Shown: one piece after another, positions 24,643 through 61,525 of the stretch
How the letters are laid out: each line of letters starts with the position of its first letter
Position numbering within the stretch: the stretch's first letter is position 1
From: Petrosia ficiformis
Lineage: Eukaryota; Porifera; Demospongiae; Haplosclerida; Petrosiidae
Direction of reading: 5' to 3'
DNA: 64,000 nucleotides
NCBI GenBank assembly: GCA_947044365.1
Contig: OX345644.1
Span: 1,241,501 to 1,305,500 of the forward strand
The notes under the pieces: model-generated
What the model saw: only the letters and a program-made list of their open reading frames with translations
What the model was told of the DNA's origin: nothing
Databases searched by the model: none
Translations under genes and position numbers: made by a program

Positions 24643-25871
24643 TCAGATGATACCTCTGAAACGATAAAATTTGTTATACTCGTCAAACAGGTTTTGTAAG
24701 CTTTCTCTAGCCTGTTCATCTAATGAAGATTTGATATAATTCTTATCTTCGTCACTCAACAACTTGAACAGCTGTATCACACCAGACGAGATGGATTTCT
24801 AAAAGAAGAGGAGAAATGAGTTGAATAAGTTAACAATAATCAATTCACTCACTTTCATTTTTCCATTTAATGGTGCTTTCTCTGTTGTAACCATGTACTC
24901 TCCAATACAGTATACAGCAAACTGAAGACATGATAATCACATGATTGATCACATGACATGACATGTAATTTATTACCTGACGAAACCATGTCTGTCGACT
25001 GAGTGCTTCCAATAATCTGTATTACATATTATGAATGTATTACACAATATGATGTATGATGACACAATGTGACATTTTATGACAGTTATTACACAGTATT
25101 GTGTATGATGCATGTGACATTTATGACAGTTATTACACATTATGATGACACAATGTGACATTTTATGACAGTTATTACACAATATGACACTTTATGTATG
25201 ATGCAGCATGACATTTTATGACAGTGTATAACACAGTACTGATATAATACTACATATCAGTACATCTACATGTACATGTAGAGGTCAGTACATGTAGATG
25301 TACATGTACATGTACATGTCAATGCATGTACATGTAGATATCAGTACATGTACACACATACCTACCTAATTAGAAGTGCTATGGTTTCTCTATAATTTAT
25401 TGGACAAGGTTGTATATATAATCTCTGAGCTGCTGTGATGTTTACTCTCAAACACTGTACTCATAATTGTTAAGACAAACTACAACACAATATCAAACAG
25501 GATAATAATTACATAACTCTTATACTGTACCAAATTATTATATAGTTCCCTCCTGCATACCATGGACCCTTCATACATACACATAGCCTCAATGTATCAT
25601 TCTAATTTTAAACATTTCGGGCCCTCTATAGTGAGGGGTGTGGTTTAGTAACTAGTTATTAAAAGGATATTATTAAGTGATGATAGGATTACAGCTGGAC
25701 ATTTTGACAACACTGAGGAATAATTATGAACAAGAGATAATAGCAGCTGTTGATATTCTAATAGAACCTCACATCTGAATAATGAATATACATGTATGTG
25801 TGTGTGAACGTATGTGTGTATGTATGTATATATGTATGCATGTGTGTATGTATGTATGTACATGTATGTAC

Positions 25872-25903
<32 letters not shown>

Positions 25904-26441
25904 ATATGTATGTACATACATTTGTATATCAATATATATATATAATGTCCTGTATGTCCATTTTATGTACATTTTATGTCTAATAAATATCACCTCCCTA
26001 ACCTTGTACTGAGTATTTCCTCTTGAATAATTGAGAAGATATGTAACAGAAAATTAACTGTTCTAGAATATAGTCCAACCTGAGGAGCAATAATATTACA
26101 CACACAGACAAACAAACACAGATGGATAGAAGGATGGATGGATGGACACACACACACACACACACACACGTGTATATATATATACCTGTTTAGGTAATGT
26201 TGTTAACAGCTGCAGTAGTTGTAATGATGATATGATTATTATTTTTGTTTTGTCAAACTCTTCATCTTCCGATATTACACATGATACAAACTCAATACAC
26301 TGAATTACCACCTGGAATATTAGACAATGTGTGTACATTGTATGTTTGTATGTATGTTTGTACATATGTATGTATGTATGTACATATGTATGTATGTATG
26401 TATGTACATGTATGTATGTACATATGTATGTATGTATGTAC

Positions 26442-26472
<31 letters not shown>

Positions 26473-26648
26473 TGTATGTATGTATGTATGTATGTATGTA
26501 TGTATGTATGTATGTATGTATGTATGTATGTATGTATGTATGTATGTATGTATGTATGTATGTATGTATGTATGTATGTATGTATGTATGTATGTATGTG
26601 TGTGTGTGTTTGTATGTATGTACGTATGTACGTATGTATGTATGTATG

Positions 26649-26679
<31 letters not shown>

Positions 26680-26990
26680 TACTACATGTCATGTACATGT
26701 ATTATGAATGTACATGTACCTTGGTATTCCATTTTCTCAGTTCCATTCTACCCTCTTGGGTCAAGCTTGAGTCCAATATTGACAACCAACACAAAATCCA
26801 ACACAACTTGGATTCAGAATGAGTCTCTTTCTGCATTAAAAAAATACACATGTATGATTGTATGTACACATGTACATATGTACATATATAGTTATATACA
26901 TGTACATACATACATACATACATACATACATACATACATGTACATACATACATATACGCACATACATACATACATACATACATACATACA

Positions 26991-27022
<32 letters not shown>

Positions 27023-30000
27023 CACACATACGTACATACATACATTGTACATATACACACATACATACATGTACATACATACACGCATACACATGTACAT
27101 ATGTATGTACATACATACATACCTGTACCAGTGTGAACGTATGTTCAAAAATGGCTGCCACATCAGATCTGTCATTCAGTTTTCTCAATAATGTTTTAAT
27201 TCCATATAAATATTTTGAAACAGCTGCACATAATGGTAACATCCCTTTCTCTTCATTACTTATTACATATTTCCTTATATGGTCATACTCATGCACACTA
27301 GGTACAGGGTAGCAATTTAAAATGATTTGTTTATGGAAGATGTTTTTGATTTTCTGCTGTTGACACATGTGAAGAAGTCTATCTTGAAGAACCTGCCATA
27401 TTAGGAGAGGCTTAAATGAGACGTCAATTGGTAGAAATGAAAAGGGCACAGTTAGAATCTGTGACACATGAGATAACTGGGAGGGAGGGAGGGAGGGAGG
27501 GAGGGAGGAGAAAGAGGAACAGAGGGAAGGAGGAGAAAGAGGAACAGAGGGGGAGGGAGAGAGGAGAGAGTTCAATATGTATATTAATTTTATGCTCATT
27601 ACACACTCAAAATGTATACTAACTTGTGCGACATCTTGAATGGAAGAAAGTTGACTCGATTCAGTTAATTTATGTAATCTACCAGGACATGTATAAAATA
27701 GAGATATACACTACCTGACTTTATTAACTAAAACAAAAGATTGTTATACCAAAACAACACTAGACTACATTCTAACTACAGTGTACTTCACTCACAAAGT
27801 ACACTGTAGTCAATGGAAGTACAGTGATAGTGTGTAAACTTAATAATGTCAGGTACTATATATATGAATTCACATCCATGAAATAGATGCATACAATAGA
27901 TACATATACACACAATATCTTATAAATATATATGTACGTACCTCCATTCTTGTTTCTGTAATCCAGTCCTTACTATATCAGAATAGACCATCATATCATC
28001 ATTAACCTGATTCCTGGTTTTATCAACAAAAAACTGGAGAAAGAATGGGAATAGGAATGGGAATGAGGAAAACAGGAATGGGAATGAAAACAGATATAAA
28101 ATGGGAACATGAATGCAAACGAGAACAGGAATATATAAGATAAGTTAATTAGGAAGAAACCCTCCTAACGGTGTTACACGGAATCCCAGCCACTCCTCCA
28201 ATCCCCTCAGCCCTATGTCATAGACTTCTCTCCTTACCTGATTAGAAACATGAGCTAGTAATAATAAACATCTACAATGAAATACTTCATTAGAAGAGAG
28301 CATGGAGGAGGAAGAACAGGTTGGGGTTTCCTCTTCATCAACTCTATTCAACAACTAAATAAAACAATAATACATATAATAATATAAATATTATAATAAT
28401 ATTTATATTATTATATCTTATTATGAGAAAATTAGTCACTTGGGAATTTTGATGGAACAATTACCTTTAATCAAAATTCAGCTTGCTGTATATGGCCAAA
28501 TACAGTGTATTTCTTTTTCTAGAACTGTTTTACCAGAATGTGGCTAACAAGAAAGTTGCTAATATTAACCAGCTCTCCGGGGCCGACGGCTTTACATCCC
28601 CTCCAAAGTATGGAGTGATGAACATCTCCCCATTTTGAGGTTAGAGCCGAGTGATACTCATGGGCGAAAAAAGCCTGCACCTAGTGGGGCTCGAACCTGC
28701 AACCTTCTCATTGCAGGCCAACACTTTAACCAATAGGCCACTACTACACCCCATTTTATATATTAAAGGTTAGCATTTCATTATCATTATCACTTCACAA
28801 GAGACTGATCTTATAATCACATTTATCATTCCATATTATCCCATCCCACCATCTCCTGTCCTATCTCTGCTCTTTCATTTCTAAATTTCTAATCTAAGAT
28901 GATACTTACTAATGTTACAAACTCTCGAGGCCACATTCCCAGTAACATATTCCATTCCAGTACCCTCTCCATAGCAACCAACACAGAACTCTACAAGAGA
29001 ACACAAGTATTGACTATGTGTTGATTCTGCGTGAATCATTACTTGAACTTCAGTTGTAGCTGATACACCACAGTCCAGTAACCATGGTAACAGAAATCTC
29101 AAATCTAATAATTGTTTCCCTTTTGCTTTCTTTTTGTGTCCTTTCTTCTTTGTTCTCCATGAGTGAGACATCTGATAAAATAACTGAGCAAGTGTCAGCA
29201 GACCTTGACAAAACACTTCATTGATATTAGTAGGGAACTCATCTAAAGACACTCCAACCTGTATGTATATATGCAGGTACATGTACAGTAATGTACTAAA
29301 TATGTGTACACGTACAGCAATGTACTGATCATCTGTACATGTACAGTAATTTACTAAGCATGTGTACATGTACAGTACTGTACTGATCAACTGTACATGT
29401 ACATGTAAAATGATGTACAGGTACATGTTCAGTAATGTACTAAACATGTGTACATGTACAGTTCATCTCACCTGTGCAGCAATACACAGACTTGTTACTC
29501 CACATACAACTTTGGTCACTCGAATGTCATGTGATCTTGTAACAGGAATCGAACTTATAACCTACATTTAAAGTATTGTTAAGATTACATGTACAGTACA
29601 TGTACTAATATTATAATTACAATAATTACATGTACAGTACATGCAAGGGCGTAGCCAGGAAGAATGAATAGGGTAGGCTAGAAGTAAATGGCCGAAAATT
29701 TTAGCCAATTAATTATTCATGACAGGTGTGGTCAATTAATAATATTCGTAACAATAGACTAACCCAGCCTATTCGTTTAATATGGCGCTATAGAAGTGAT
29801 CTAAGCTGTATTTACTGAAAAGAATCAAAAGTTGTCTGGAAAACAATTATATTTCCACCATAATTATCATTATTTTTTATCCTGTAAGTATATAATTTAT
29901 TTTAATTTTATTATATACAATATTTTGAGAAGTAATTAAGAAATAAGTTCAAAATCTCAGGGTAGGCTATAGCCTACCCCAGCCTACTGCTAGCTACGCC

Positions 30001-30418
30001 CTTGAGTACATGTACTAATATTATAATTACAAGTACATGTACATGTACTAATATTATGATTGAATGATTAAAGTACATGTACATGTACAAATACTAAGAT
30101 TACGTGTACACGTAAATATTAAGTATTATGTACATGTACATGTACTAACATTTTATAATAAGGTTATTGGTTTTACTTACTTCAAGACAGATTGGTAGGT
30201 ACTGTAAACATTTATTAATTTTTTTCCTTTCTTTTTCAGATGGAGTTTTTCTACTTCCCTCTTCTCTTGACAATGAAACTGTCTTAATTATCTGTTCCAG
30301 CTCGTGAATAATTAATGAGACCTTCCCTTCTTCAGATGAGCAGCTGTAAAGATATTCCTTTATCTCAATAATATATCTACAACAAAAATAGATACATGTA
30401 TGTACATATGTACACACA

Positions 30419-30464
<46 letters not shown>

Positions 30465-31833
30465 AACACTTCTTTGGCCATAAAGCTCCTGCATGTGACA
30501 GACAGACATGACTCAAAGCAACATGGAGTTCTCTCATTTCTTGATAGGAGAAAGATAAGAGCAGCGAATCAACAACTCTCTTCAAGCCACAATAGTCAGT
30601 CTCAGAAAGACAAACAGACAAGATAGACGATGCTACTGCTTTCCACAATGGAGAGGAGGAGGAGGAAGAGGAAGAAGAGGAGGAAGAGACGTAGGTGTAT
30701 ATAAATGGTAGTTGAGATATGAATAGACTCCAAGATGCTGTGTGCTGATTCTCTTGAGAAATATTCAATATCTGTATGTATGTATGTGTATAAAGAAAAC
30801 AAGTCAGACTAGTTTTACAAGTACTAATAACAAGTATTACTTGTCCATTCCAGATGCTACTAAAACATGAAGATGGAGAAGGAGTCAGAAATTCTATGAA
30901 CAGAGGTACATCCTTTTTCTCTTGTGATGAAAATCTCAAATAGAGAATTGTCAACCATCTCTGTGGAATTAATGGATGTTATTAATTTACATAATATATT
31001 GTTTCTTACTAGTAAGAAGACAGTACGAGGTGAGAGAGATGACTCACTCGCTACACCTTCCTTCCAGCACATAGGAAGAGGAAGTTCCAAGTCTGAATCC
31101 CATACCATACTTAGACTGATTCCCATATAATCTACTGGTAACAGCTGATGATAAACAGCTGATAATGAATAGTAGAACTGAGAGACAATGAGCAATAAAT
31201 GAAGAACTGGATCGTGAAGTAATGGCTACAAATATAAAAGAAAAGAACAGAGATCAATGAGATCAATGAACATGCAAGACAGAGACCAATGATCTGGATA
31301 GAGACCTAGACGTCACCAAAAGACGGTGGGTGTGGCGGCAATGGTTTAATTTGACACAGATTAAAACCGAGACCTTAGGATTGAGGGGTGTGTCCTATGA
31401 ATTTTAATGAGGAGGTAAATATCCCATATCTAGTTAATAGTGTAGTAATAGCTCAATACATCTAACCTTCTCTTTTGCTATATCCATATATGGCAAGCAG
31501 ACGTCCTTCATAAGCATACAAACCACACCCACAATTTCTTCACAATGACGTACTTTACCAAATACATCCAGAGGAAGTGGAAGGAGTACTGTTTCCATGA
31601 CATTGATCACATGACTAACAGAAGATATCAAAGAGTCTGCTTTCTGAGATATATAGAGGGAGTTCCTTCTTTTCTTCTTTTGTGGAGAAGGAGTGGTAAT
31701 TGTCAGCTCATCAAGAAGAGGAAGGTAGTATTCTTTTAGTTCAGTAGTGAGTAATTCTATCAGAGACAGACACTGACCAGCTGGTAGAATCTTCAGTGAA
31801 CTATTGAAACTGAGAAAATACATTTATCAGAGA

Positions 31834-31892
<59 letters not shown>

Positions 31893-34800
31893 TACAATCA
31901 GATAAAATACATATATATTGTATATCTGAGAGTGCTGTAGTACTCTCTATGTAACTAGGGATGGCCTGGAAAAGTATAAATATTCAACAAGTGTCATACT
32001 GATTAGATATATATAATTACAATACCTCATGTGAAATGATAATAACAGTAGTTTATGAGTGATAAAGTCATGAAGGAGTGTACAACTGTATAGACACAGG
32101 ATGATTAGTTTATTATATATATTTCATATGGAATGATAATAACAGTAGTTTATGAGTGATAAAGTCATGAAGAAGTGTATAACTGTATAGACTAGTGTTG
32201 TTCTAGTTCTATTTATTTTAAAAATTCCAGTTCCAGTTCTGGAACTTTTTTGTTGTCGTTTACAGTTCCAGAACCTTTGTTTTGATAATTTTAGTTCCAA
32301 TTATAGTTCCAGAACCTTTATTTTGATAATTTTAGTTCCAATTATAGTTCTGTTTTATTGTCCTAATGCTAGTTCTATGGTGCCAGTTGCTGGTACTCAT
32401 CAGCTTTGCATGATATCATAATCAAAACAAGTTGTAAAATGCTAAAATTAGTATCCTTCCACACTGTAAAAATGAACCGGTTATTTTAACCCTTATTCGG
32501 TACAGGAGTTTCAATGCTATATTGATAATAAATAATAAATATTATAGTTGTGAGCTATGAATTATCTGTGGAGAACAATGTTATTTGTTGACAAATTCCA
32601 CAACTTTGTGCTTAATAACAAATAACAGACAACAGATAACATTTGCGTATATAGATTATTATATATATGTATATATATACACACAAATGTTTTAAAAAAT
32701 CTATTTGTTATTTGTTATTATAAGTACAGAGTTGTGGAATTTGTCAACAAATAACTTTGTTCTCCACAGATAATCGAATAAGAATTTACAATAATGTATA
32801 CCCACAAGCATATTTATTATCAATATAGCATTGAAACTCCTGATAAGGGTTAAAATAACCGGTTCATTTTTACAGTGCAACTTCAAAGAAAATGTAAAAT
32901 GGCCCAAGTTACCGGCATTCCTGACATTTGCAATTATTCATAGTGGTTTTAGTTACTGTACTAATTAAAGTTTAATCGCAAAGACTTAGTTCTATACCAA
33001 TTCAAGTTCTTAACAAAATATTTTTTTAGTTCTAATACCAATTCAAGTTCTTAACAAAATATTTTTTTAGTTCTAATACCAATTCAAGTTCTTAACAAAA
33101 TATTTTTTTTAGTTCTAGTACCAATTCTAGTTCTCGGTACTAGAACTAAAATAAAAAGGCCAGAACTAAAGTTATATTAGTTCTAGTACCCAAGAACTAT
33201 AACAACACTAGTATAGACACAGGATGATTAGTTCTACTTACCATATTAGGAAGTTTAATGTATAAATTCTATACAGTATACATATATTATATATATACTA
33301 TATACATTTAGACTATGGAAGTATTATACAATACTAATAAGCTCTTGTTAATAATAATACTTAATATTACCATACATGGTAAAAATAATGATCCAACTTT
33401 TCTACAAACTGTTCATAACCACAAATATTATCAGTTATTATAATAGATACTATTAATACATTTCTACCATATTAGGAATTAACCAGTCTATTTTTAGAAA
33501 GCAGAAAGAGATGGCTCAACAATCTTCTTCTACTGCTCTTAAGGAACTTCATGAACAACTAACATGTAATGTATGTTTGGATCAGTATACTAACCCCAAA
33601 ACTCTTCCATGCTTACATAGCTTCTGTTTAGAATGTATTGAGAAACTACCACAAGAACCACAGGTACAAACACACACACACAATCTGCTTTTGTTAACAC
33701 TTCATTGTTTATACATTATCTTATTTACTAACAGGGAGACAAGTATTTCATAAGGTGTCCTTCATGTCGTAAACCCACACAACTACCCGACATAGGACCC
33801 ACTCAATTCCCTACTGCTTTCCTCATTAATAGCCTCTTTCAACTACAAACTACTCTACAGAAAACGCTCAAAGGTCCAGACGTCTTTTGTGATAATTGTC
33901 ACAAGAACTCTGCTACTGGTTATTGTAAAAAGTGTACTCAATTCTTGTGTCCAAAATGTCTTGATGCACATAACACATGGCAGCCCTTCTCTACTCATCA
34001 GGTTATCAATGTACAAGATGTAGCACTACTCAATACTTCTAAACTACTTCCATTCAATGAGGATAGAAATATGAAGTGTAACGATCATAACAAGTCGTTC
34101 AAAGTCTACTGTGAAACCTGTCAACAGCTTATTTGTCGAGATTGTACGATTAGTCAACGACATCAAAATCACAAGTACAAGCTCGTTACTGAATGTTATC
34201 CTGATCATCATCAAGAGATAGAGGCTGACCTCACGACAGTAAAAAGGAAAGTAGCCGATGTTAATACAGCAGTGACTAACCTCATTACTCGAGAGAGGGA
34301 TGTCACAAAACAGGGAGAAGATGTCAAGAAACAGATCCACACAAACTCTCAAATAATCATTGACTTAGTTCAACGGTCAGAGAGACAGTTACTTCAACAG
34401 GTAGACATTGTAGTACAACAGAAAATCCGATTACTAACCAAACAGAGAGAAGAGGCGGAGACAGTCCTCAAACAGCTCAAAGGTTGTGAGGAGTTTGTAG
34501 AACAGAGTTTAAAGGTGGGGACTCAACAACAGATATTGAGGGAGAAACAGGATATGGTACAAGTAATGACAACAGTCAATCAAGATGTCAACCCTGTTGT
34601 ATTTCAACCAATAGAGGAGGCCAACATCACATTCACTAGTAATCAGGCATTGGTTGATATATTTGAGGGTATTGGTCAGTTAAAATTTAAAACGTTTGGC
34701 AAATCGATTCTCGTAAAGAATGCTTCTTACATTGGTAAGAAATCGACCATCACACTCAACCTCCACACTCAAGATGGATATCCCTTCTCAGTTCCTCTCT

Positions 34801-35822
34801 CCCTCATCTCTTGTGAACTCTTTTCTGCTGATGATAGTCAACTCATATCATGTGATATCAATGAGACCCAGTCAGGAAACTACGATATAAGCTTTACACC
34901 ACGTACCAGAGGAAAACATCAATTGACAATACGATTAGGAGGTGTGAATATCCCTGGTAGTCCCTTTACTCTTCATATCATCCCTTCCCCTGAGATGAGA
35001 GGTAAACCAGTGAATATTATATCAGGACTCAATAAACCGTTTTGTGTAGCAATCACTAAGAATGAAGAGATTGTAGTAGCTGAGAAAGATTCCCATTGTA
35101 TCACAATACTAAACAAGGAGGGAAAGAAAGTCAAGTCAATTGGAACATACGGAACAAAGGAGGGTCAACTCACTAATCCTCGTGGAGTTGCCATCTCTCA
35201 TGATGAACACATTTTAGTAACTGATAATCATCGACTACAGAAACTAACATTTGAAGGTCATTGTGTCAAATCAGTTGGGAGTAGTGAGAAAGGCAATGGT
35301 CCTCTTCAGTTTAATACTCCTATAGGTATTACAGTTCATCCTACCACAGGACAAATATTCATTGCTGATAATAATAATCATCGTATTCAAGTTCTCAATA
35401 AAGATCTCACCTACTCTTATATTTTCGGTAAGAAAGGTTCATCACCAGAACAATTCAATCAGCCATGGGATGTGACATTTGACAATGAAGGACATTTGTA
35501 TGTTGCAGATCAGTGTAATCACTGTATCAAGAAGTTCACATCAACAGGACAATACGTCTCAACATTTAGTTTGCATGGGTCTAATCCTGGTCAAATTAAA
35601 GATCCTTCCTCCATCATCATACATAATAATCTATTATATGTTAGTGAGTTGGGTAATAATCACCGTATCTCAATATTTGATACTAATGGATGTTTTATAC
35701 ATTGCTTTGGTAAGAGAGGTAGTGGAAAGGAAGAGTTTAGTGGTCCATTTGGTATAACAGTAGATTCATTAGGTAACTTGTATGTTAGTGACTATTTTAA
35801 TAGCAGACTAGTTGTTTTGTAG

Positions 35823-35878
<56 letters not shown>

Positions 35879-38127: not shown

Positions 38128-38162
<35 letters not shown>

Positions 38163-38502
38163 TTGATTCTAATTGTTCTTATAATAATTTTAATTCACAA
38201 TAGTCATTCACAAGAACAGCAACAAATATTTTTAAAATGTGGGGATATCAAAAACAAAAAAGTACACTAACAAGATTGGAACAGTATCATAGCTAAACTA
38301 ACCACTTCCATGTAACTCTATAGTACACACACATAGTTATACTTTTGTATAGGGTTATATGGAAGTGATTTTGTTGCTAAGTACCATCCCAATCTTGTTT
38401 ATGTATGTTTTTAGTTTTGATATCCCTACATGTTCTTTCAAATATATATTATATTTTTATGGCCCATAGGGCCATCCCTATAATTGCTTTCCACGGGGTT
38501 TA

Positions 38503-38562
<60 letters not shown>

Positions 38563-43597: not shown

Positions 43598-43638
<41 letters not shown>

Positions 43639-44102: not shown

Positions 44103-44253
44103 AATAATATATACCACATTCCCTAAATATGAGAGTACAATTTATCAGTAAATATTAAACTCAGTATTTTAGTCAATAACTCTCAATAACATATACAGTA
44201 TTCTCTACATATGAGAGTACGTATTACACTCAGTACTTCAGTCAAGAACTCCC

Positions 44254-44399: not shown

Positions 44400-44441
<42 letters not shown>

Positions 44442-44536
44442 TTATATATATATATATATATATATAATTATATATATATATAATTATATATATATATATA
44501 TTATAATTATATATATTATATATTATATATATTATA
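44254..44536. repeat. AT-dinucleotide low-complexity tract
   Basis: Almost pure A/T sequence leading into the assembly gap; probably the cause of the break. Confidence 0.9.
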
Positions 44537-44736
44537 NNNNNNNNNNNNNNNNNNNNNNNNNNNNNNNNNNNNNNNNNNNNNNNNNNNNNNNNNNNNNNNN
44601 NNNNNNNNNNNNNNNNNNNNNNNNNNNNNNNNNNNNNNNNNNNNNNNNNNNNNNNNNNNNNNNNNNNNNNNNNNNNNNNNNNNNNNNNNNNNNNNNNNNN
44701 NNNNNNNNNNNNNNNNNNNNNNNNNNNNNNNNNNNN
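44537..44736. other. assembly gap (200 N)
   Basis: Exactly 200 N, so the true size is unknown. By comparison with the other copies it should hide the last three exons of the right URB2 copy (equivalents of 24643-25016) and exon 1 of the middle copy (equivalent of 61359-61525). Confidence 0.95.
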
Positions 44737-47624: not shown

Positions 47625-47656
<32 letters not shown>

Positions 47657-50600
47657 CACACATACATACATGTACATACATACATGTACCAGTGTGAATG
47701 TATGTTCAAAAATGGCTGCCACATCAGATCTGTCACTCAGTTTTCTCAATAGTGTTTTCATTCCATATAAATATTTTGAAACAGCTGCACATAATGGTAA
47801 CATCCCTTTCTCTTCATTATTTATTACATATTTCCTTATATGGTCGTACTCATGCACACTAGGTACAGGGTAGCAATTTAAAATGATTTGTTTATGGAAG
47901 ATGTTTTTGATTTCCTGCTGTTGACACATGTGAAGAAGTCTATCTTGAAGAACCTGCCATGTTAGGAGAGGCTCGAATGATACGTCAATTGGTAGAAATG
48001 AAAAGGGCACAGTTAGAATCTGTGACACATGAGATAACTGGGAGGGAGGGAGGAGAAAAAGGAACAGAGGGGGAGGGAAGGAGAGAGGAGAAAGAGGAAC
48101 AGCAGGGGAGGGAGAGTGGGAGGGAGGAAGAAGGAGAGAGTTCAATATGTATATTAATTTAATGCTCATTACACACTCAAAATGTATACTAACTTGTGCG
48201 ACATCTTGAGTGGAAGAAAGTTCACTCGATTCAGTTAATTTATGTAATCTACCAGAACATGTATAAAATAGATAGATATATGGTACCTGGCTTTATTAAG
48301 TTTACATACTATGATAGAGCTACACTTTAATAAGGTATAGTCAACTGTACTTCTAAGTAGTACTACTGTGTACTGTAATCATAGTACTAAGGTGTAATAC
48401 TGTGTAGTACATTCAAAGTACAGTGTACTTCACTCACAAAGTACACTGTAGTCAATGGAAGTACAGTGATAGTATGTAAACTTAATAATGTCAGGTACTG
48501 TATATATGAACTCGCATACAATAGATACATATACACACAATATCTTATAAATATACATGTACGTACCTCCATTCTTGTTTCTGTAATCCAGTCCTTACTA
48601 TATCAGAATAGACCATCATATCATCATTAACCTGATTTCTAGCTTTATCAACAAAAAACTGAAAAAAGAATGGGAATAGGAATGGGAATGAGGATAACAG
48701 GAATGGGAATGAAAACAGATATAAAATGGGAACATGAATGCAAACGAGAACAGGAATATATAAGATAAGTTAATTAGGAAGAAACCCTCCTAACGGTGTT
48801 ACACGGAATCCCAGCCACTCCCCCAATGCAGGATCCCAGCCACTCCTCCAATCCCCTCAGCCCTATGTCATAGACTTTCTCTCCTTACATACCTGATTAG
48901 AAACATGAGCTAGTAATAATAAACATCTAGAATGAAATACTTCATTAGAAGAGAGCATGGAGGAGGAAGAACAGGTTGGGGTTTCCTCTTCATCAACTCT
49001 ATTCAACAACTAAATAATATAAATATAATAATAATTATTATTATTATCTTATATGAGAAAATTAGCCACTTGTGAAACATTAATTTTGATACCTTTAATT
49101 CAAATTTAGTCAGCTTGCTATACGGTGTATTTAAACCTTTTCTTTTTCTAGAACTGTTTTACCAGAATGTGGCTAACAAGAAAGTTGCTAATATTAACCA
49201 GCTCTCCGGGGCCGACGGCTTTACATCCCCTCCAAAGTATGGAGTGATGAACATCTCCCCATTTTGAGGTTAGAGCCGAATGATACTCATGGGCGAAAAA
49301 AGCCTGCACCTAGTGGGGCTCGAACCTGCAACCTTCTGATTGCAGGCCAACACTTTAACCAATAGGCCACTACTACACCCCATTTTATATATTAAAGGTT
49401 AGCATTTCATTATCATTATCACTTCACAAGAGACTGATCTTATAATCTCATTTATCATTCCATATTATCCCATCCCACCATCTCCTGTCCTATCTCTGCT
49501 CTTTCATTTCTAAATTTCTAATCTAAGATGATACTTACTAATGTTACAAACTCTCGAGGCCACATTCCCAGTAACATGTTCCATTCCAGTACCCTCTCCA
49601 TAGCAACCAACACAGAACTCTACAAGAGAACACAAGTATTGACTATGTGTTGATTCTGCGTGAATCATTACTTGAACTTCAGTTGTAGCTGATACACCAC
49701 AGTCCAGTAACCATGGTAACGGAAATCTCAAATCTAATAAATGTTTCCCTTTTGCTTTCTTTTTGTGTCCTTTCTTCTCTGTTCTCCATGAGTGAGACAT
49801 TTGATAAAATAACTGAGCAAGTGTCAGCAGACCATGACATAACACTTCATTGATATTAGTAGGGAACTCATCTAAAGACACTACAACCTGTATGTATATA
49901 TGCAGGTACATGTACATACATAATGTATTATACATGTACAGTGATGTACTAAGTGTGTGTACATGTACAGTAATTTACTAAACATGTATACATGTACAGT
50001 ACTGTACTAAGTGTGTGTACATATACAGTAATGTACTAAGTGTGTGTACATGTACAGCAATGTACTAAGTGTGTGTACATATACAGTAATGTACTAAGTG
50101 TGTGTACATGTACAGTAATGACCTGATTAACTCCACATGTAAAGTAATTTATTAAGCATGTGTACATGTACAGTAATGTACTAAGCATGTGTACATGTAC
50201 AGTAATGTACTGATCAACTGCACATGTACAGTAATGTACTAAGCATGTGTACATGTACAGTAATGTACTGATCAACTGCACATGTACAGTAATGTACTAA
50301 GCATGTGTACATGTACAGTAATGTACTGATCAACTGCACATGTACAGTAATGTACTAAGCATGTGTAGATGTACAGCAACGTACTAAGTGTGTGTACATG
50401 TACAGTAAAAGCATGTGTACATGTAAATGATGTACAGGTACATGTACAGTAATGTACTAAACGTGTGTACATGTACATGTACATTGATCTCACCTGTGCA
50501 GCAATACACAGACTTGTTACTCCACATAAAACTTTGGTCACTTCAATGTCATGTGATCTTGTAACAGGAATCGAACTTATAACCTACATTTAAAGTATCA

Positions 50601-50947
50601 TTAAGATTACATGTACTAACATTATAATTACATGTACATGTACATGTAAATATTAAGATAATATGTACACGTACTAACATTTTATAATAAGGTTATTGGT
50701 TTTACTTACTTCAAGACAGATTGGTAGGTACTGTAAAAACTTATTAATTTTTTTCCTTTCTTTTTCAGATGGAGTTTTTCTACTTCCCTCTTCTCTTGAC
50801 AATGAAACTGTCTTAATTATCTGTTCCAGCTCGTGAATAATTAATGAGACCTTCCCTTCTTCAGATGAGCAGCTGTAAAGATATTCCTTTATCTCAATAA
50901 TATATCTACAACAAAAATAGATACATGTATGTACATATGTACACACA

Positions 50948-50993
<46 letters not shown>

Positions 50994-52494
50994 AACACTT
51001 CTTTGGCCATAAAGCTCCTGCATGTGACAGACAGACATGACTCAAAGCAACATGGAGTTCTCTCATTTCTTGATAGGAGAAAGATAAGAGCAGCGAATCA
51101 ACAACTCTCTTCAAGCCACAATAGTCAGTCTCAGAAAGACAAACAGACAAGATAGACGATGCTACTGCTTTCCACAATGGAGAGGAGGAGGAGGAAGAGG
51201 AAGAAGAGGAGGAAGAGACGTAGGTGTATATAAATGGTAGTTGAGATATGAATAGACTCCAAGATGCTGTGTGCTGATTCTCTTGAGAAATATTCAATAT
51301 CTGTATGTATGTATGTGTATAAAGAAAACAAGTCAGACTAGTTTTACAAGTACTAATAACAAGTATTACTTGTCCATTCCAGATGCTACTAAAACATGAA
51401 GATGGAGAAGGAGTCAGAAATTCTATGAACAGAGGTACATCCTTTTTCTCTTGTGATGAAAATCTCAAATAGAGAATTGTCAACCATCTCTGTGGAATTA
51501 ATGGATGTTATTAATTTACATAATATACTGTTTCTTACTAGTAAGAAGACAGTACGAGGTGAGAGAGATGACTCACTCGCTACACCTTCCTTCCAGCACA
51601 TAGGAAGAGGAAGTTCCAAGTCTGAATCCCATACCATACTTAGACTGATTCCCATATAATCTACTGGTAACAGCTGATGATAAACAGCTGATAATGAATA
51701 GTAGAACTGAGAGACAATGAGCAATAAATGAAGAACTGGATCGTGAAGTAATGGCTACAAATATAAAAGAAAAGAACAGTGATCAATCAACATGCAAGAC
51801 AGAGACCAATGATCTGGACAGAGACCAATGATCAGGACAGAGACCAATGATCTGGACAGAGATCAATGATCTGGACAGAGACCAATGATCTGGACAGAGA
51901 TCAATGATTTGGACAGAGATCAATGATCAGGAGAGATCAATGATCTGGATAGAGACCTAGACGTCACCAAAAGTGGGCGTGGCAATGGTTTAATCAGATT
52001 AAAACTCTAATGACAAGAGACCCTAGGATTGAGGGGTGTGTCCTATGATTTTTAATGAGGTGGTGAATATCCTAGTTGATCCATATCTGTTAATAGTTTA
52101 GTAATGGCATTTCATTTCATTACATCTAACCTTTTCTTTGGCTATGTCCATATATGGCAAGCAGATGTCCTTCATAAGCATACAAACCACACCCACAATT
52201 TCTTCACAATGACGTCCTTTACTAAATACATCCAGAGGAAGTGGAAGGAGTACTGTTTCCATAACATTGATCACATGACTAACAGAAGATATCAAAGAGT
52301 CTGTTTTCTGAGATAGATAGAGTGAGTTCCTTCTCTTCTTCTTTTGAGGAGAAGGAGTGGTAATCATGAGCTCATCAAGAAGAGGAAGGTAGTATTCTTT
52401 TAGTTCAGTAGTGAGTAATTCTATCAGAGACAGACACTGACCAGCTGGTAGAATCTTCAGTGAACTAATGAAACTGAGAAAATACATTTATCAG

Positions 52495-52580
<86 letters not shown>

Positions 52581-55500
52581 TACAATCAGATAAAATACAT
52601 ATATATTGTATATCTGAGAGTGCTGTAGTACTCTCTATGTAACTAGGGATGGCCTGGAAAAGTATAAATATTCAACAAGTGTCATGTCATACTGATTAGT
52701 ATATTATATATATAATTATAATACTTCACGTGGAATGATAATAACAGTAGTTTATGAGTGTAAAGTCATGAAGGAGTGTATAACTGTATAGACACAGGAT
52801 GATTAGTTTATTATATATATAATTATAATTCTACATGTGGAATGATAATAACAGTAGTTCATGTGTGCTAAAGTCATGAAGAAGTGTATAACTGTATAGA
52901 CACAGGATGATTAGTTTTCTTCACAAACCTTACCATATTAGGAAGTTTACATGTGTACAGTGGATCTATTATATATGTACTATATAGTAAAACAATCAGA
53001 CAGTCTGGTAACTATGGAAGTATTACAGTTGGATGTTTCTTCATCACTCATAAGCTCTTGTTAATAAGTACAAATGAATGCACTCAGGTGCAGAACCCTC
53101 GCTAAAAAGATGCTACTATGAATGTATGCTTCTCAGCATAAACAATCAACAATGAAACAGGGTGTCATGGGCGTACCTCATCTGCCTACGTTCGGATTAA
53201 TAACGTTACATAGGCGTGACTGAGTAACAATGGCGACGGGTGAAAAAAGCCTATTTTTCGACTTTGCACGACTGTATCTAATCCATCGAAGAGTTTTCTT
53301 GCAAATCACTTGAATCTCGCAGTAGACCTAGTGTGCTCTTTCCTTCGCAGTGACCAAGAATCTTCAAAAGTAGGCCGTTGCAAAGATTAGTGGGAACACA
53401 CACACACCGATTATTATAACCCTCCGCCTACGCGCTTGGGTTATCAATAGTGTATTACCATATATGGTAAAAATAACTATGTACTATTTAATTATGGTAA
53501 AAATAATGATCCCACTTTTCTACAAACTGTTCATAACCACAAATATTATCAGTTATTATAATAGATACTATTAATATATTTCTACATACCATATTAGGAA
53601 TTAACCAGTCTATTTTTAGAAAGGACAAAGAGATGGCTCAACAATCTTCTTCTACTGCTCTTAAGGAACTTGATCAACAACTAACATGTAATGTATGTTT
53701 GGATCAGTATACTAACCCCAAAACTCTTTCATGCTTACATAGCTTCTGTTTAAAATGTATTGAGAAACTACCACAAGAACCACAGGTACAAAAACACACA
53801 CAATCTGGTTTTGTTAACACTTCATTGTTTATACATTATCTTATTTACTAACAGGGAGACAAGTATTTCATAAGCTGTCCTTCATGTCGTAAACCCACAC
53901 AACTACCCGACATAGGGCCCACTGAATTCCCTACTGCTTTCCTCATTAATAGCCTCATAGCTGTACTCAATACTTCTAAACTACTTCCATTCAATGAGGA
54001 TAGAAATATGAAGTGTAACGATCATAACAAGTCATTCAAAGTCTACTGTGAAACCTGTCAACAGCTTATTTGTCGAGATTGTACAGTTAGTAAACGACAT
54101 CAAAACCATGATTACAACCTTGTTACAGAGTCCTACCCTAAACATCATCGAGAGATAGAGGCTGACCTCACAACAGTGAAAAGAAAAGTAGCTGATGTTA
54201 ATACAGCAGTGACTAACCTCGTCAGTCGAGAGAGGGATGTCACAAAACAAGGAGAAGATGTCAAGAAACAGATCCACACACACTCTCAACTAATCATAAA
54301 TTTAGTTCTACAGTCACAGAGACAGTTAGTTCAACAGGTAGACACTGTAGTACAACAGAAGATTCAATTACTAACCAAACAGAGAGAAGAGGCGAAGACA
54401 GTCCTCAAACAGCTCAAAGGTTGTGAGGAGTTTGTAGAACAGAGTCTGAAGGTAGGGACTCAACAACAGATATTGAGGGAGAAACAGAATATGATACAAG
54501 TAATGACAACAGTCAATCATGATGTCAACCCTGTTGTATTTCAACCAATAGAGGAGCCCAACATCACATTCACTAGTAATCACACATTGGTTGATACATA
54601 CATGTATGAGGGTATTGGTCAGTTAAAGTCTAAAACGTTCGGCAAATCGATTCTCGTCAAAAATGCTTGCTACGTTGGTAAGAAATCGACCATCACTCTC
54701 AACCTCCAGACTCAAGATGGATCTCCCTTCTCAGTTCCTCCCTCCCTCATCTCTTGTGAACTCTCTTCTGCTGATGATACTCAACTCATATCATGTGATA
54801 TCAATGAGACCGAGTCAGGAAACTACGATATAAGCTTTACACCATGTACCAAAGGAAAACATCAATTGACAATACGATTAGGAGGTGTGAATATCCCTGG
54901 TAGTCCCTTTACTATCTCCCCTGAGATGAGAGGTAAACCAGTGAATATTATATCAGGACTCAATAGACCATGGGGTGTAGTAATCACTAAGAATGAAGAG
55001 ATTGTAGTAGCTGAGAATGGTGCCAATCGCATCAAAATACTAAACAAGGAGGGAAAGAAAGTCAAGTCATTTGGAACAAAGGGAACAAAGGAGGGTCAAT
55101 TTACTTGTCCTCATGGAGTTGCCATATCTCAAGACGGATACATTCTGGTAACTGATTCTCATCGACTACAGAAACTAACATTTGAAGGTGATTGTGTGAA
55201 ATCCGTTGGGAGTACTAAGAACGGCAATGGTCCTCTTCAGTTTTATTATCCTACAGGTATTACAGTTCATCCTACCACAGGACAAATATTCATTGCTGAT
55301 AGATACAATCATCGTATTCAAGTTCTCAATAATGATCTCACCTACTCTCATAGTTTCGGTAAGGAAGGTTCATCACCAGTACAATTCAATTTTCCATGTG
55401 ATGTGACATTTGACAATGAAGGATATTTGTATGTTGCAGATACTAATCCCTGTATCAAGAAGTTCACATCAACTGGACAATACATATCGACATTTAGTTC

Positions 55501-58163
55501 AGAAGGGTCTAATCCTGGTCAAACTACTAACCCTACCTCCATCATCATAGATAATAATCTATTATATGTTAGTGAGTATGGTAATAATCGTATCTCAATA
55601 TTTGATACTAAAGGATGTTTTATACATTGCTTTGGTAAGAGAGGTAGTGGAGAGGGAGAATTTAATACTCAATTTGGTATAACAGTAGATTCACTAGGTA
55701 ACTTGTATGTTAGTGACTCGGGTAATAACAGACTAGTTGTTTTGTAGATCTATTTTAAACATGACATGTTTATCTTAGAGTATAATAATGTAGATTATTA
55801 TTTTTTTTTTTTTTTTTTTTTTTTTTTTATTTTTTTTTTTTTTATTATTTTTTTTTTTTTTTTTTTTATTATTATTACTTGATTCTAATTGTTCTTATAA
55901 TAATTTTACTTCACAATTTATTAACTAGTCATTCACAAGAAGAACAGGAACAAGTATTGGTAAAATGTGGGTATATCAAAAACGAAAAAGTATGCTAACA
56001 AGATTGGAACAGTACCATAGCAACAAAACTAAACTACCAACTTCCATATAACTCTATAGTACACACATGTAGTTATATATACTTATGTATAGGGTTATAT
56101 GGAAGTGGTTAGTTTAATTTTGTTGCTAAGATACCATCCCAATCTTGTGGTGTACTTTTTCGATTTTGATATCCCTACATGTTCTTTCAAATAAACATAT
56201 ATAATTATGTAATTATATATATATATATATACTGTCCCTCTCCAGACATTAAAACATAATTAAAAATTCTAACCTTTTCTCAACAGAGTGAAATAGGGCT
56301 GGAGCTAATCGAGGGAACAACCCCTCCTCATAGAGTCCTCTGATTGACTTCAATAGTTGTGTCACCAACTCAGGTAACTGTGATAAAGTATAATATGTGA
56401 GTTTACATATACAAGTGTACTTACACTGTACATACTGTATTAGACACAAGTATAGTATACATGTATCAGTTAACATATACAAGTGTACTTACACTGTACA
56501 TACTGTATTAGACACAAGTATAGTATACATGTATCAGTTAACATATACAAGTGTACTTACACTGTACATACCGTATTAAACACAAGTATAGTATACATGT
56601 ATCAGTTAACATATACAAGTGTACTTACACTGTACATACCGTATTAGACACAAGTACATGTATATAGTAAACACTAACACATACATGTACATGTACATGT
56701 ATTACATGTATTACCTGATGCAGTTTTGTGTATAATGATACAAGATTCTCATAAAACTGGTTTGTATGATGTAATAACTATATCAAATAGAGACATACAA
56801 ATATTAAATAGATAGATATAACTATTGATAGATAGATAGATAGATGGATGGATGAATAAATGGATAGATAGATAGATAGATAGATACTAAATAGATAGAT
56901 AGATACAACACAAGTACACAAACATACCTCTCTATAATGAGAAGGGATACATAGAGATAGAGACCACAGAGAGGACAAGACTAGAGAAATGATTTTATGA
57001 TTTAGTCTGGACATAACAGATATACAACGAAACCATTTGTCCAGCACACTATGAAAGAGGGATAGTATCATTAGACCAAATAAAAGTCAAAATAAATCAT
57101 ATGTAAGTATTAATTTAGAGCCATTGACAAACATGTCTGTGTTCACATGGGAAACTATAAACATTGGTGGATGGAATGAGCTACTGGTAGACTATATTGT
57201 GTGTAGTGTATAGTACTATATATTTACTTACTGAAGATGTTTCAAAGATACTTGTTTGAGTATGAAATTAAACAGATAATAAAAGAAATGAAGCTGTTGA
57301 CTACCTGATGATCCATCCTCAGTAACCTGTATATATGTGGGTGCATGTGTATGTCATGTGATCAATAATGGACTATAAACAACAATACAATATAATACAG
57401 TGCAGTACAGTATACATGCAGTGTAGTATAGTACAATACAATACAGTATAGTACAATACAATACAGTAAAGTACAATACAGTACAGTATAGTACAATACA
57501 GTACAGTATACATGTAGTGTAGTAAATACAATACAGTATAGTACAATACAATATACAGTATAGTACAATACAGTATAATGCAGTATAGCACAGTTTAGTA
57601 TAGTACTAACACTATACCATGATTAACTCATAAACATACAGTTCTCATGTATACCTGATATATATTATTCTGTTCAATAATTATTAAACACTCGTAAACC
57701 ATATCCAACAAATTATAATCATCAACTTCGCACTTCTGCCCCTCCTCCTCCTCCTTCTCCTCCTCTTCCTCCTTCTCCACCTCATTATACTGACATAAAT
57801 ATTCTATCAGTTCGTTTAAACTGATTATAACATCACTTGAGAGATGATCATTAATATCAACCACTTTATCTCCTTCATCCACACACTTCTCTTTCCCTTC
57901 TTCAATCTCTATCTCTTGTTTCAACTCCTCATCTTCATTAGTGACATTCTCTCTTAATTTTTTTGAATGAGGTAAAGACTTCAAACCAAACAGTTGAAGA
58001 AGAGACACAAAGAAATAAAATTCCTTTTGCGTAGACAATTTCTTTTCCCACCTGAAAGATAAAATTGATATACTGGATATATGAACATGCTCATTACAAC
58101 ACATGGACAAACAAACAGGCTGATGATAAACAAACAGACAGACAAACAAATAGACAGACAGAT

Positions 58164-58195
<32 letters not shown>

Positions 58196-61100
58196 GGACA
58201 GACAGACAGACAGATGGTCAGTGAGACAAACAGACAAACCTATTTTGTTCAATCATACAATTGAAGATCATTGATATACTCTTCTCTACACATTTCCTCT
58301 CCCTCTTATCGGATGAAGAGCTTAACATGTTACCTAGTACATCAAACAGGTTCTGTGTATAGTTCATTATCCCTTCTATAGGATGACTAGTCATGACAAG
58401 AACTGATGAATATTCATTTAAATGATCACTGAAAGAGAAATAGTATATTATTAGTAATCTACCGATATGGATTTTCTGATAAACCGATAATGTATAATGA
58501 TTGTTACTAATAATAGAATCCATTTGTTTATGTTACTAATAATAGATTTATAAGTATTGTTACTAATAATAGAATCCATTTGTTTATGTTACTAATAATA
58601 GATTTATAAGTATTGTTACTAATAATAGAACATTACCATAGTGATTGTTACTAATAATACCATAGTGAATAATAGAATTATAATTAATAATACCAATCCA
58701 ATATTACATGTACATGTACATTCTAGTATTAGTACCTTGAGAATAGGTTCTTGATCAGGTTTTCTAAGACTTTATGAAGTCTATCAGTAACCATAGAGTC
58801 TCTCGTTATTAAAGAATATCGTAAAATTATTATTGATTTTAATAGTTGTTGACATGTATTTATAAATACCTGAAAATAATTATAAATTATAAATATTATT
58901 ATACTATATATATAATTATACATACATACATAGATACATACATACATACATGCATACATACATACATACATACATACATGTACATATTACATACATACAT
59001 ACATACATATACATGTATACATGTACATACATACATACATACATACATGTACATACATATACATGTACATACACACATACATACATTTCAGTGTTTCCCC
59101 CAAAGGGTGGTACCATGGAGCTACCCCTCTCTTTATTCTTGCTCTCCCACCCTTTAATATTAAAGTTAATACTCAAAACCAATGTTTAGTACACTGTTGA
59201 CTAAACATTGGGTACCCCTGATGCATACCTCCACCCTTAATATTATCTTGTGGGAAATACTGTATATATAATAAGTAATACGTTATTATAATATACATAA
59301 CACAGGAACATAAATATACATATATACAATTATACATACGTACATGCATACATAAAAATCTACATACGTATTTAAGTACATATATACATACACATGTAGT
59401 TAAGTGTACATCAACACATAATATATACACATACGCATATAATACATACATGTACATACTTTTTTTGGATTTCCATACACTCTTTGTAAATAAACCAGGT
59501 GTTCAAGGAAATGGCTCAGTTCAGTGATACAATCATCAATGTGTTGTGAATGGTTTATACAACACACAGCTTCAACACTACTAACACCAAGAGGAAGCTG
59601 AATGTAACAATAGAAGAATGATTATTATTTAATGAATCATGAGCTTATGATAACACCTAACCAGTGTTTTTGATAAGCTCATATGGCGCACCATTGGCCC
59701 AAAGAGCTTCTTATTTGGCACTGCACAGTTCTCTCTTTGGGCCAGTAGCACAGTTAATTATGATTATATTGTCACTAGCAGCATTAACTCTCAGTTAAAT
59801 GGCTCAAGATGTATTCTCAATGGCGCACACACTAACCATTGTTGAGCCAATTTGGCCCAAGCTTCAAAACTCTGCACCTAACTATAAATCTTCCATAGCT
59901 ACCACAAAGCATTTAATATAGAAAATATCTCAATAGTGAGTATTATTATTATTATTATTATTATTATTCAATTCACTAATATTCTCAACTACATGTACTT
60001 TTCCACTTAAACATGTAATTTAGTTTGTTTCCCATTAATGAGTGAACAGTGAGATTTAAATGTGTTCATCAATATTATAATTATTAATTGAGTGACTGCA
60101 TCTCATCCATAATCACATTATTATGATTAACAAAACTTCACAAAATCGCCTTTGTGTGACCACACCCCTCTAATTAAATTTCATAAAGTGCCTACAACAG
60201 ATGTATGTATGTTAATTGTTATTACCATTAGTTCATGTCTATAAAAGACAGCTGGTTTAGGTTTGATAGACAACATGAGAAACAAACATTTAAGAATATG
60301 TACAGCTGTTGAAAGATCGTCTTTCATGGCTCCAGTCATAGTCTGAAATTAAATATAATTATAGAGTGAATAATTGAAGTCTGTTCATATACGTGATGAC
60401 CTCAAAACTATGATGTGATGACTTTATATGTAATAGTGTATAGTTTAATGTCATAAGGTTAATACACGATTATACTGTAACTCAATAATGAAGTAATGGA
60501 TAGAAATTTGATATACACATAGGCGGCGGAAACAGGGGGGCATTGAAGCTTGTTTTCATTAATAATTAGTTCAGGTTTGCATTAACAATTAGTTGTGGCC
60601 CCACCCCTTTCCTAATGAACTTCCTCCACTTATGATACACAAAAAAGAATTGAGAATGATGAATATATAAAAATGGTGAAGTTATGAACATATTTCTGAG
60701 GTCATTGTAAACATCTTAAGTTAACTTAATACTTACCTTAATAAGTGGTGTAGAGATTATTAAATGTTTAGTATCACTAGTATCGGTAAGTATTACACTC
60801 AGTACTTTAGTCAAGAACTCCCAATAATATATACCACATTCCCTAAATATGAGAATACAATTTATCAGTGAATATCAAACTCAGTAATAATTATCAATAA
60901 TATATAAAGTATTCTCTACATATGAGAATTTGTATTACTTCAGTCAAGAACTCCCAGGTCACATCAGATATCTGACTCCACTGGCACAAGTAATGGAGGT
61001 GTGGCCACAATCACATGCACGTAATTGTATATTTATTAAAGAAAACTTATTTAAACTTATTGCACTTAACCACTCTAGGGCTCTAGCAATGTATAACACT

Positions 61101-61525
61101 TGCAACTAGGAACTCTTGCAACGTATAACACTCTAGGGCTCTTGCAACATATGACCTAGGCCACTCTTTCACTATCACACTTCTATAACAAGACCATGAG
61201 TGGTAATATTTTGTGATTTGTAGCCACACCCCCATTATTCCTGCAATGGAGTCAGATATATAACATAATCTGAACTCCCAATAATATATACCACATTCCG
61301 TACATATGAGAATACACATATAATTGAATCATTGACTGGTACATACATGTATGTGTACCTTTCTGTGCTTTTTTTATAAATAGTGACTAAAGATTCACTT
61401 GTCCACTGGTACAAGTATCCTGCCTTTCCCTGGTCACGTGACTGATTCATCCCTCTCCATATGTAGCAGGCCACCTTCAATCTGTCTTCCCAAAGCAAAG
61501 AGTGATCATGTAATCTCTTCCACAT
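44998..61525 (-). CDS. URB2: URB2-like gene, right copy (starts at exon 1; 3' end in gap)
   Basis: Exon 1 (61525-61359) begins MWKRLHDHSLLWEDRLKVA and matches the vertebrate URB2 N terminus ('SWEDKLKLA...SLVAFYKK' versus 'LWEDRLKVA...SLVTIYKK'). Exons 60842-60737, 60342-60226, 59597-59460, 58869-58736, 58428-58240, 58051-57655, 57326-57232, 57048-56928, 56777-56715 and 56377-56274 follow in phase. The next intron holds TRIM E antisense. Then come 52473-52131, 51754-51539, 51489-51370, 51300-50999, 50905-50710, 50583-50494, 49887-49539, 49009-48893, 48658-48567, 48248-48194, 48019-47684, 46669-46559, 46410-46285, 46194-46118, 45864-45783 and 45086-44998. Problems: the 27-nt microexon is not recognisable, the following exon (about 52725-52785) has a 1-nt deletion, and the acceptor before 45086 reads AA instead of AG. 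Role: nucleolar 60S assembly factor. Confidence 0.65.
45174..45618. mobile_element. hAT-type MITE, 445 bp, with 8-bp target duplication
   Basis: The ends 'taggggtgggcgata' and 'tatcgcccacctcta' are inverted with one mismatch. The direct repeat ATTATTAT flanks it (45166-45173, 45619-45626). The middle copy has the empty site 'accaaattattatatag' near 25530, so the insertion is younger than the duplication. Confidence 0.9.
46925..47545. other. unclassified insertion in right URB2 copy intron
   Basis: Sequence absent from the equivalent intron at 26840-27120. It begins with an A/T-rich stretch ('aattaaattaaattaaatt') and contains 'atgcgcatgcgca' and GC-richer DNA to about 47545, where CATA repeats resume. 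No protein or RNA family was recognised. Confidence 0.45.
49150..49385 (-). mobile_element. tRNA-derived SINE (paralogue of 28520-28755)
   Basis: Same position in the URB2 intron and same A/B-box-like head and tail as the copy at 28520-28755. Confidence 0.65.
49935..50480. repeat. 'gtgtacatgtacagtaatgtactaa' tandem array
   Basis: Units of about 30-60 bp built from 'catgtgtacatgtacagtaatgtactgatcaactg'-type words repeat many times. The left and middle copies have only a few units (11570-11720, 29300-29460), so this array expanded in the right copy. Confidence 0.8.
51790..51960. repeat. 'gatctggacagagaccaat' tandem array
   Basis: About eight imperfect units of roughly 20 bp in a URB2 intron. 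The other copies have a single unit (13554-13575, 31280-31302). Confidence 0.8.
52499..52576. repeat. (GT)n microsatellite
   Basis: Counterpart of the 238-bp GT run at 14108-14345. Confidence 0.95.
53065..53460. other. insertion upstream of TRIM E, class unknown
   Basis: About 390 bp, GC-richer than its surroundings, lies between the URB2 exon region and the conserved TRIM 5' flank. It is absent upstream of TRIM B and C. Words such as 'ataaccctccgcctacgcgc' and 'gtgcagaaccctcgc' suggest transposon ends, but no clear TIR or coding frame was found. Confidence 0.35.
53633..55747 (+). CDS. TRIM-NHL protein E, B-box 1 deleted in frame
   Basis: Exons 53633-53785 and 53855-55747 give about 681 residues. 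The RING is complete. After 'TAFLINSL' the protein jumps to 'IAVLNTSKLLPFNEDRN', missing about 61 residues that include all of B-box 1. The frame is kept, and B-box 2 ('CNDHNKSFKVYCETC'), coiled coil, filamin and six NHL blades follow. The NHL loops differ from the other paralogues ('GLNRPWGV', 'YYPTGI', 'ADRYNHR', 'FNFPCDV'). The RING second loop has 'TLSCLHSFC' where the others have 'TLPCLHSFC'. The gene lies antisense in the large intron of the right URB2 copy. It may be functional as a RING/B-box 2 protein. Confidence 0.85.
55798..55877. repeat. poly-T with interspersed ATT
   Basis: The site that carries a pure ATT run after the other TRIM genes is mostly T here. It may be a replication or assembly artefact, or a homogenised tract. 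Confidence 0.9.
55966..56179. repeat. foldback downstream of TRIM E
   Basis: Same inverted repeat as at 5161-5375, 219 nt after the stop because the T tract is longer. Confidence 0.8.
56400..56650. repeat. 'acatatacaagtgtacttac' tandem repeat (about 58-bp unit)
   Basis: Four head-to-tail units lie between URB2 exons 56715 and 56377. The equivalents are at 39190-39400 (three to four units) and 5580-5690 (about two). Confidence 0.85.
59089..59262. mobile_element. hAT-type MITE (paralogue of 8751-8924)
   Basis: Same ends and intron position as 8751-8924. Confidence 0.65.
60517..60631. mobile_element. small MITE, about 115 bp
   Basis: This insert is absent from the left copy (about 10282). The ends 'ataggcggcggaa' and 'cttcctccacttat' are imperfectly inverted, and 'atacac' appears on both sides. 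Confidence 0.5.
60880..61320. repeat. duplicated 5' fragments of URB2 exon 2
   Basis: Degenerate copies of the exon 2 start ('gaactcccaataatatatac' then 'cacattccgtacatatga') recur at about 60890-60950 and 61265-61310. The left copy has one at about 10540-10630. They are tandem partial duplications, not extra exons: their frames close quickly. Confidence 0.55.

Follow-up and report, generated by a model that had tools for sequence, protein, structure and literature searches.

In the demosponge Petrosia ficiformis, a URB2 gene carries a complete TRIM-NHL gene (TRIM E) wholly inside one modelled intron, on the opposite strand, at a locus where host and guest have been copied together. We describe this locus through gene models, reading phases, copy numbers, a common host/TRIM junction, decay and substitution patterns. 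The window, meaning the whole stretch of 64,000 nucleotides that was analysed, covers positions 1241501-1305500 of contig C9; negative coordinates lie to its left on the same contig, and searches covered the genome of 191 Mb in 29 contigs. In the account that we favour, and consider probable, a TRIM gene was copied into a URB2 intron and the unit was then duplicated by turnover of the TRIM array, with one URB2 likely working and the others decaying.

A URB2 gene model that spans an antisense TRIM gene

The host gene is best represented by URB2 copy A, at the right of the window, with the following features.

56274..61525, minus strand: N-terminal block of URB2 copy A, 11 exons with AG/GT internal boundaries, consistent phases and a single open frame from the ATG at 61525
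61525-61359, 60842-60737, 60342-60226, 59597-59460, 58869-58736 and 58428-58240, minus strand: exons 1-6 of copy A
58051-57655, 57326-57232, 57048-56928, 56777-56715 and 56377-56274, minus strand: exons 7-11 of copy A
52474..56273, minus strand: intron 11 of copy A, 3.8 kb, with TRIM E; its host-derived ends are ~52474-52692 and the last 42-65 bases before exon 11 (~56209/56232-56273)
53633..55747, plus strand: TRIM E, with a RING exon at 53633-53785 and a main exon reaching 55747; one B-box, filamin and NHL repeats (Pfam, open frame)
44998..52473, minus strand: C-terminal block of URB2 copy A, 16 exons, from 52473-52131 to 45086-44998; the last three exons are absent before the gap
44537..44736: assembly gap of 200 N that separates copies A and B, with simple repeats on both flanks

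The initial model of copy A had 26 exons with AG/GT boundaries, continuous phase and an open frame of 1,429 aa. In the refined model exon 26 ends earlier and four exons are added, giving 30 exons and 1,531 aa, with 27 exons taken from copy A and the last three from copy B. Copy A is thus open over 27 of the 30 exons, and all its modelled boundaries are AG/GT and phase-consistent except the acceptor of exon 27 (e22), which is AA. The junction of exons 26 and 27 is uncertain: the donors score low in every copy, and the acceptor with the best score in B, which D also has, no longer has its AG in A and is outscored by another in D. The last three exons of copy A probably lie in the 200-N gap, and copy A is likely to be expressed.

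Exon 11 (56377-56274) ends with ...VEK plus two nucleotides and exon 12 (52473-52131) starts by needing one, so that the join reads ...VEK-S-FISSLKIL; this direct join had the top score of the choices listed. An earlier note on this DNA, whose limits are the end of the stop exon of URB2 copy B (24643) and the start codon of copy A (61525), had exon 11 ending at 'VEKR' in phase 2 on one side of a TRIM gene, with a microexon and the following exons resuming in a compatible phase on the other; exon 12 does so, at 52473. The note had also placed TRIM E in the right-hand copy, and the gene indeed sits between exons 11 and 12 of copy A; its RING/main intron was placed by analogy to TRIM A.

The 27-nt microexon proposed for this junction does not survive: the direct join is already in phase, and no such exon was found in the host part of the intron. 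We scanned intron 11 of copies A, B and D for stop-free, in-phase AG-27 nt-GT segments, with the donor at 56274, and obtained 9, 21 and 53, respectively; none of the nine in copy A falls within the host-derived intron ends. Segments common to A, B and D (at most three mismatches) were rejected as candidates, one (56051) lying in a palindromic repeat and the others in TRIM coding sequence.

Identity of the two URB2 blocks

The C-terminal block is URB2, as had been proposed. The Pfam Urb2 profile (PF10441) matches the composite model of copies A and B with E 5.8e-9 and 36.6 bits against a cut-off of 27.1, a scoring that read exon 26 to a stop and so included 15 surplus residues; the refined C-terminal 212 aa of the composite give E 3.9e-11 and 43.7 bits against the same cut-off. 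When the whole genome was scanned with this profile, only copies B and D matched, copy A being absent because it is without the last exons.

The N-terminal block has given no such match. Against a protein library, searched with words from the first 500 residues, none of the 7972 scored candidates reached E 0.001, and among PDB sequences none reached E 1. As a homologue was not found, the identity of this block rests on order, phase and length, which suggest that it belongs to URB2. That the two blocks are instead different neighbouring genes with TRIMs between them is very unlikely in our estimate, even though no Pfam domain or homologue marks the N-terminal block as URB2. The N-terminal block ends in a good phase-2 donor and the C-terminal block begins with a good phase-2 acceptor; their order and strand are retained in copies A, B and D, and a truncated exon 12 comes after the N-terminal block of copy C. 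The joint model of 1,531 aa also fits the length of URB2, which in human is ~1,520 aa.

Unequal and mostly broken copies

Whole-genome DNA searches with single exons, which could miss strongly diverged copies, gave four sites for exon 11, five for exon 12, and two each for exon 1 and the last exon, all at C9:1.20-1.30 Mb. The URB2/TRIM array extends 38.6 kb further left of the window, within which the remaining units are as follows.

39063..44122, minus strand: N-terminal block of URB2 copy B; exon 6 missing, exon 2 truncated, a stop in exon 9 (e08), acceptor TA at exon 10 (e09)
36198..38081, plus strand: TRIM D, in the copy B intron, 5' truncated and carrying a stop
33511..35822, plus strand: TRIM C, in the copy B intron, open
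24643..31809, minus strand: C-terminal block of URB2 copy B, all 19 exons (e12-e25) open, ending in the Pfam Urb2 domain and a stop codon
15955..18272, plus strand: TRIM B, adjoining the e12-e17 fragment, in a 98% identical block
11183..14082, minus strand: C-terminal URB2 fragment (e12-e17) without an N-terminal block, within a block 98% identical to copy B
5458..10501, minus strand: N-terminal exons 2-11 of URB2 copy C, without exon 1
2714..5004, plus strand: TRIM A, adjoining copy C exon 11, in a host intron that leaves the window on the left, includes TRIM I and reaches a truncated exon 12 at -3261

Following the minus strand, one meets N block A, TRIM E, C block A, the gap, N block B, TRIM D and C, C block B, a transposon-like gene, TRIM B, the C-terminal fragment (e12-e17), N block C, TRIM A, TRIM I, the truncated exon 12, N block D, TRIM F, a TRIM fragment, TRIM G and H, and C block D. 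Every exon-11 and exon-12 site has a plus-strand TRIM adjoining it on the intron side, and the number of TRIM genes per URB2 intron varies among copies from one to three. TRIM C and D are nested as the earlier note had them, between the corresponding exons 11 and 12 of copy B. Its placing of TRIM A in a left-hand copy is confirmed as well: the gene adjoins exon 11 of copy C, and the partner exon 12, which is truncated, lies outside the window, at -3261.

The copies differ greatly in their state. Exon 1 of copy B was not found and could lie in the 200-N gap. 'Copy C' is in fact two partial copies, the fragment without an N-terminal block and the N-terminal block without exon 1. Copy D is interrupted by a stop in e14a and by frameshifts in e12 and e19; its e02 donor is AT, and e16 and e17 are absent. 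No complete and intact URB2 frame, from start to stop on one stretch, is present in the assembly, copy A being short of three of its 30 exons and B, C and D damaged or partial. That a housekeeping gene was multiplied in working order is thus not supported. The claim that the unit was duplicated at least three times does have support, from exon models, phases, whole-genome exon counts and the common host/TRIM junction, although the copies are unequal, A alone being close to complete. For the most part the amplification is one of decay.

One duplication is young, with 98% identity between 10825-18681 and 28562-36220. Within a URB2 intron, a tRNA-derived SINE-like stretch, recognised by eye (49190-49400 and 10825), marks the breakpoint between the C-terminal fragment and N block C.

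Other sequences are interspersed at the locus. Between TRIM B and URB2 copy B is an open tyrosine-recombinase-like frame of 472 codons (20627-22045, plus strand) that matches Pfam DUF3504, QRICH1 and Phage_integrase. Three further genomic sites match the entire query at 99-100%, so that the frame has the appearance of a DNA transposon with recent activity, presumably Crypton-like. A transposase-like frame (-28165 to -27512, minus strand), which we take to be of the Tigger/pogo type, adjoins TRIM H within the copy D intron, and frame pieces that by eye resemble an ion-channel gene (-54500 to -39500, plus strand) lie just past the end of URB2 copy D. At the Rfam gathering threshold, the single match in the window was a tRNA (39435-39507), and no snoRNA was found there.

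Divergence of the copies and the possibility of haplotypes

Exons have changed less than the surrounding sequence. Between copies A and B, the N-terminal block has 33 differences in 1239 exon positions versus 244 in 2476 non-exon positions, and the C-terminal block has 51 in 2700 versus 220 in 3015. The dN/dS of URB2 copies, calculated like all our dN/dS values with gapped codons and stop codons excluded, lies at 0.29-0.49 in 11 of 12 comparisons, the remaining one giving 0.79, which indicates constraint for much of their history even though three copies are now damaged or partial. The three C-block exon/non-exon comparisons with copy D were not used, since the lack of two exons in D misaligned them; the C-block dN/dS values with copy D, computed exon by exon, were kept.

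These divergences bear on a different reading of copies A and B, namely that they are two haplotypes of one URB2 placed side by side at the 200-N gap, so that there are fewer real tandem copies. We regard this as unlikely. The overlap of A and B is bounded by the gap on both sides, with A stopping after exon 27 and B starting in exon 2, as in false haplotype duplication, and A and B jointly would supply both ends of one URB2. However, outside exons the N-terminal blocks of A and B differ by 0.099, no less than pairs on gap-free stretches (B-C 0.078, B-D 0.097 and C-D 0.084); with all other pairs at 0.078-0.102, A and B are no closer to each other here than to other copies. In the C-terminal block, too, non-exon divergence is 0.073 for A-B, 0.062 for A-C and 0.026 for B-C. 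Haplotypes would furthermore make copy B a null allele, and copies C and D stay duplicates even so.

The nested genes as members of a diversifying TRIM array

B-box matches place the window in a wider setting: among the best 150 of 506 candidates, 75 are on C9, spanning 0.44-2.1 Mb. The window thus lies inside a megabase-scale TRIM array. The TRIM-NHL genes here, which we take to be TRIM2/3/71-like, resemble TRIM-NHL ubiquitin ligases in their order of RING, B-box, filamin and NHL, found by Pfam in both exons of TRIM E (where no coiled-coil is assigned) and in the main exons of TRIM A and B, and by tblastn in the RING exons of the latter two; a ligase role is putative. They differ from such ligases in forming a large tandem family, in the frequent absence of one B-box segment (TRIM A gene positions ~326-511; absent from 17 of 34 genes, present in 16 and truncated in TRIM D), and in an NHL dN/dS of about 1. 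About 1 kb from the start of URB2 copy A, and divergent from it, is an open filamin-NHL frame of 417 codons (62430-63683, plus strand) with no RING or B-box matches.

The earlier description of this family as rapidly evolving holds for its NHL part. There dN/dS is 1.16 among nested genes (15 pairs) and 1.01 among genes outside (253 pairs), versus 0.34-0.42 in the B-box/coiled-coil and filamin segments; these values are descriptive, as segment borders were set by hand and pairs are not independent. An open main exon of 600 aa or more was required, which left 29 of 34 genes in the sample (6 of 9 nested and 23 of 25 outside), one outside gene that was left out (L038) coming from a short stretch and possibly being cut. 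In midpoint-rooted trees without support values, built for three segments from 34 genes (33 in one) and excluding five duplicate loci (L003-L007) and matches below 1.8 kb, the nested genes are not united in a single clade, so that gene conversion within the array and repeated insertion are both possible.

Origin of the nested arrangement

The ends of intron 11 preserve the border between host and guest. On the side of exon 12, the sequence upstream of TRIM E matches the surroundings of other C9 TRIM genes only as far as 52693, ~220 bases from the exon, among the best 40 of 411 candidates, and this host/TRIM junction is continuous in all five exon-12 sites. On the side of exon 11, among the best 40 of 1481 candidates, the first 42 bases are covered only by the four exon-11 sites; a dispersed repeat can align beginning with base 43, and for TRIM units B, C, D and I the match sets in at base 56-66. 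These borders fit a TRIM segment having entered an intron of less than about 300 bases ahead of the duplications.

TRIM A to F and I have on their 3' side a palindromic repeat (55962-56189), which is MITE-like and matches both strands at many places. One locus, at C1:25.41 Mb, has the repeat together with the TRIM 3' flank; a copy may therefore have moved away, or the repeat predates the nesting.

We propose that a TRIM-NHL gene of the large tandem array was copied at the DNA level, in antisense orientation, into a small intron 11 of URB2. Unequal exchange during array turnover would then have multiplied the URB2-TRIM unit in tandem, with at least three duplications, and TRIM genes would have been further duplicated inside intron 11; exchange between TRIM repeats probably drove this copying. 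Copy A most likely still yields URB2, splicing over TRIM E, which would be transcribed from its own promoter on the opposite strand, with interference with URB2 possible. The other URB2 copies would be decaying passengers, by-products of TRIM array turnover, while the nested TRIMs may go on diversifying their NHL parts like the remaining array.

A conserved core beside exon 12

The host-derived end of intron 11 next to exon 12 contains one short element.

52596..52685, minus strand: 90-bp core towards the 3' end of intron 11, with one sequence in four copies and a single-base difference in the fifth

The core is near-invariant, versus a difference of 7-10% between A and B in non-exon sequence. 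Its five occurrences include pairs of recent duplicates (the fragment at 14082 with copy B, and the truncated exon 12 at -3261 with copy A), and the telling comparisons are thus A with B and either with D. It has a good acceptor (first base 52653) that scores on par with real ones, and no good in-frame donor; read on from exon 11 by eye, it meets a stop after six codons. As a normal exon the core was rejected, with in-frame donors all at or below 2.9 against 4.0 for the lowest modelled donor.

Such an element invites the thought that the antisense TRIMs are kept since their transcription regulates URB2, by interference or poison splicing, with ribosome production answering to TRIM activation. 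Opposite-strand nested genes are able to alter host expression (PMC12274878; PMC3192792), and five almost unchanged cores, with an acceptor of this quality and an early stop, would suit a regulatory part. Still, we judge such regulation highly improbable. The core is equally preserved in broken copies, the number of TRIMs per intron is not constant, and the decay of the other URB2 copies is better explained by passengers than by regulation. We give the least credence of all to a definite switch, in which the intronic TRIMs and the core would lower full-length URB2 either through TRIM transcription or through the core as a poison or terminal exon; were it true, ribosome production would be tied to an immune-like, diversifying TRIM array. 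Passenger copies amid array turnover remain our preferred account of the locus.

A housekeeping gene carried along by its neighbours

Nested genes are common in animal genomes. One study gives 567 opposite-strand nested pairs for C. elegans (PMC12274878), and another gives 2,432 nested genes, on either strand, in the annotation of the sponge Aphrocallistes vastus and 3,358 in that of the sponge Amphimedon (PMC10282587); interference by nested genes has been reported in a third (PMC3192792). The URB2/TRIM arrangement is therefore unusual and not new in kind. The earlier note knew of no description of it. A URB2/TRIM-NHL pair of host and guest was not found among the papers listed by searches of open-licence literature, which is weak evidence of absence. 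For opposite-strand nesting as a kind, the note's statement goes too far, since such genes are common (PMC12274878; PMC10282587). Like other such nested genes, this guest is, by gene models, a complete gene in a host intron on the other strand; unlike them, the URB2/TRIM host and guest were co-copied several times, and the guest comes from a large diversifying array. The host, for its part, resembles URB2/Npa2 in its C-terminal Pfam Urb2 domain and as a long multi-exon gene, and differs in having one near-complete copy amid several broken ones. It is for co-amplification and decay that the case is notable.

Annotation and phasing can err at loci of this kind, and our results serve as a warning in this respect. 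They also offer a clear case in which a fast-turning array carries a housekeeping gene along, the host persisting as a single near-complete copy among wrecks. How often arrays break or rescue their neighbours, and whether an antisense guest is a burden on a ribosome-assembly gene, are questions that this locus opens.
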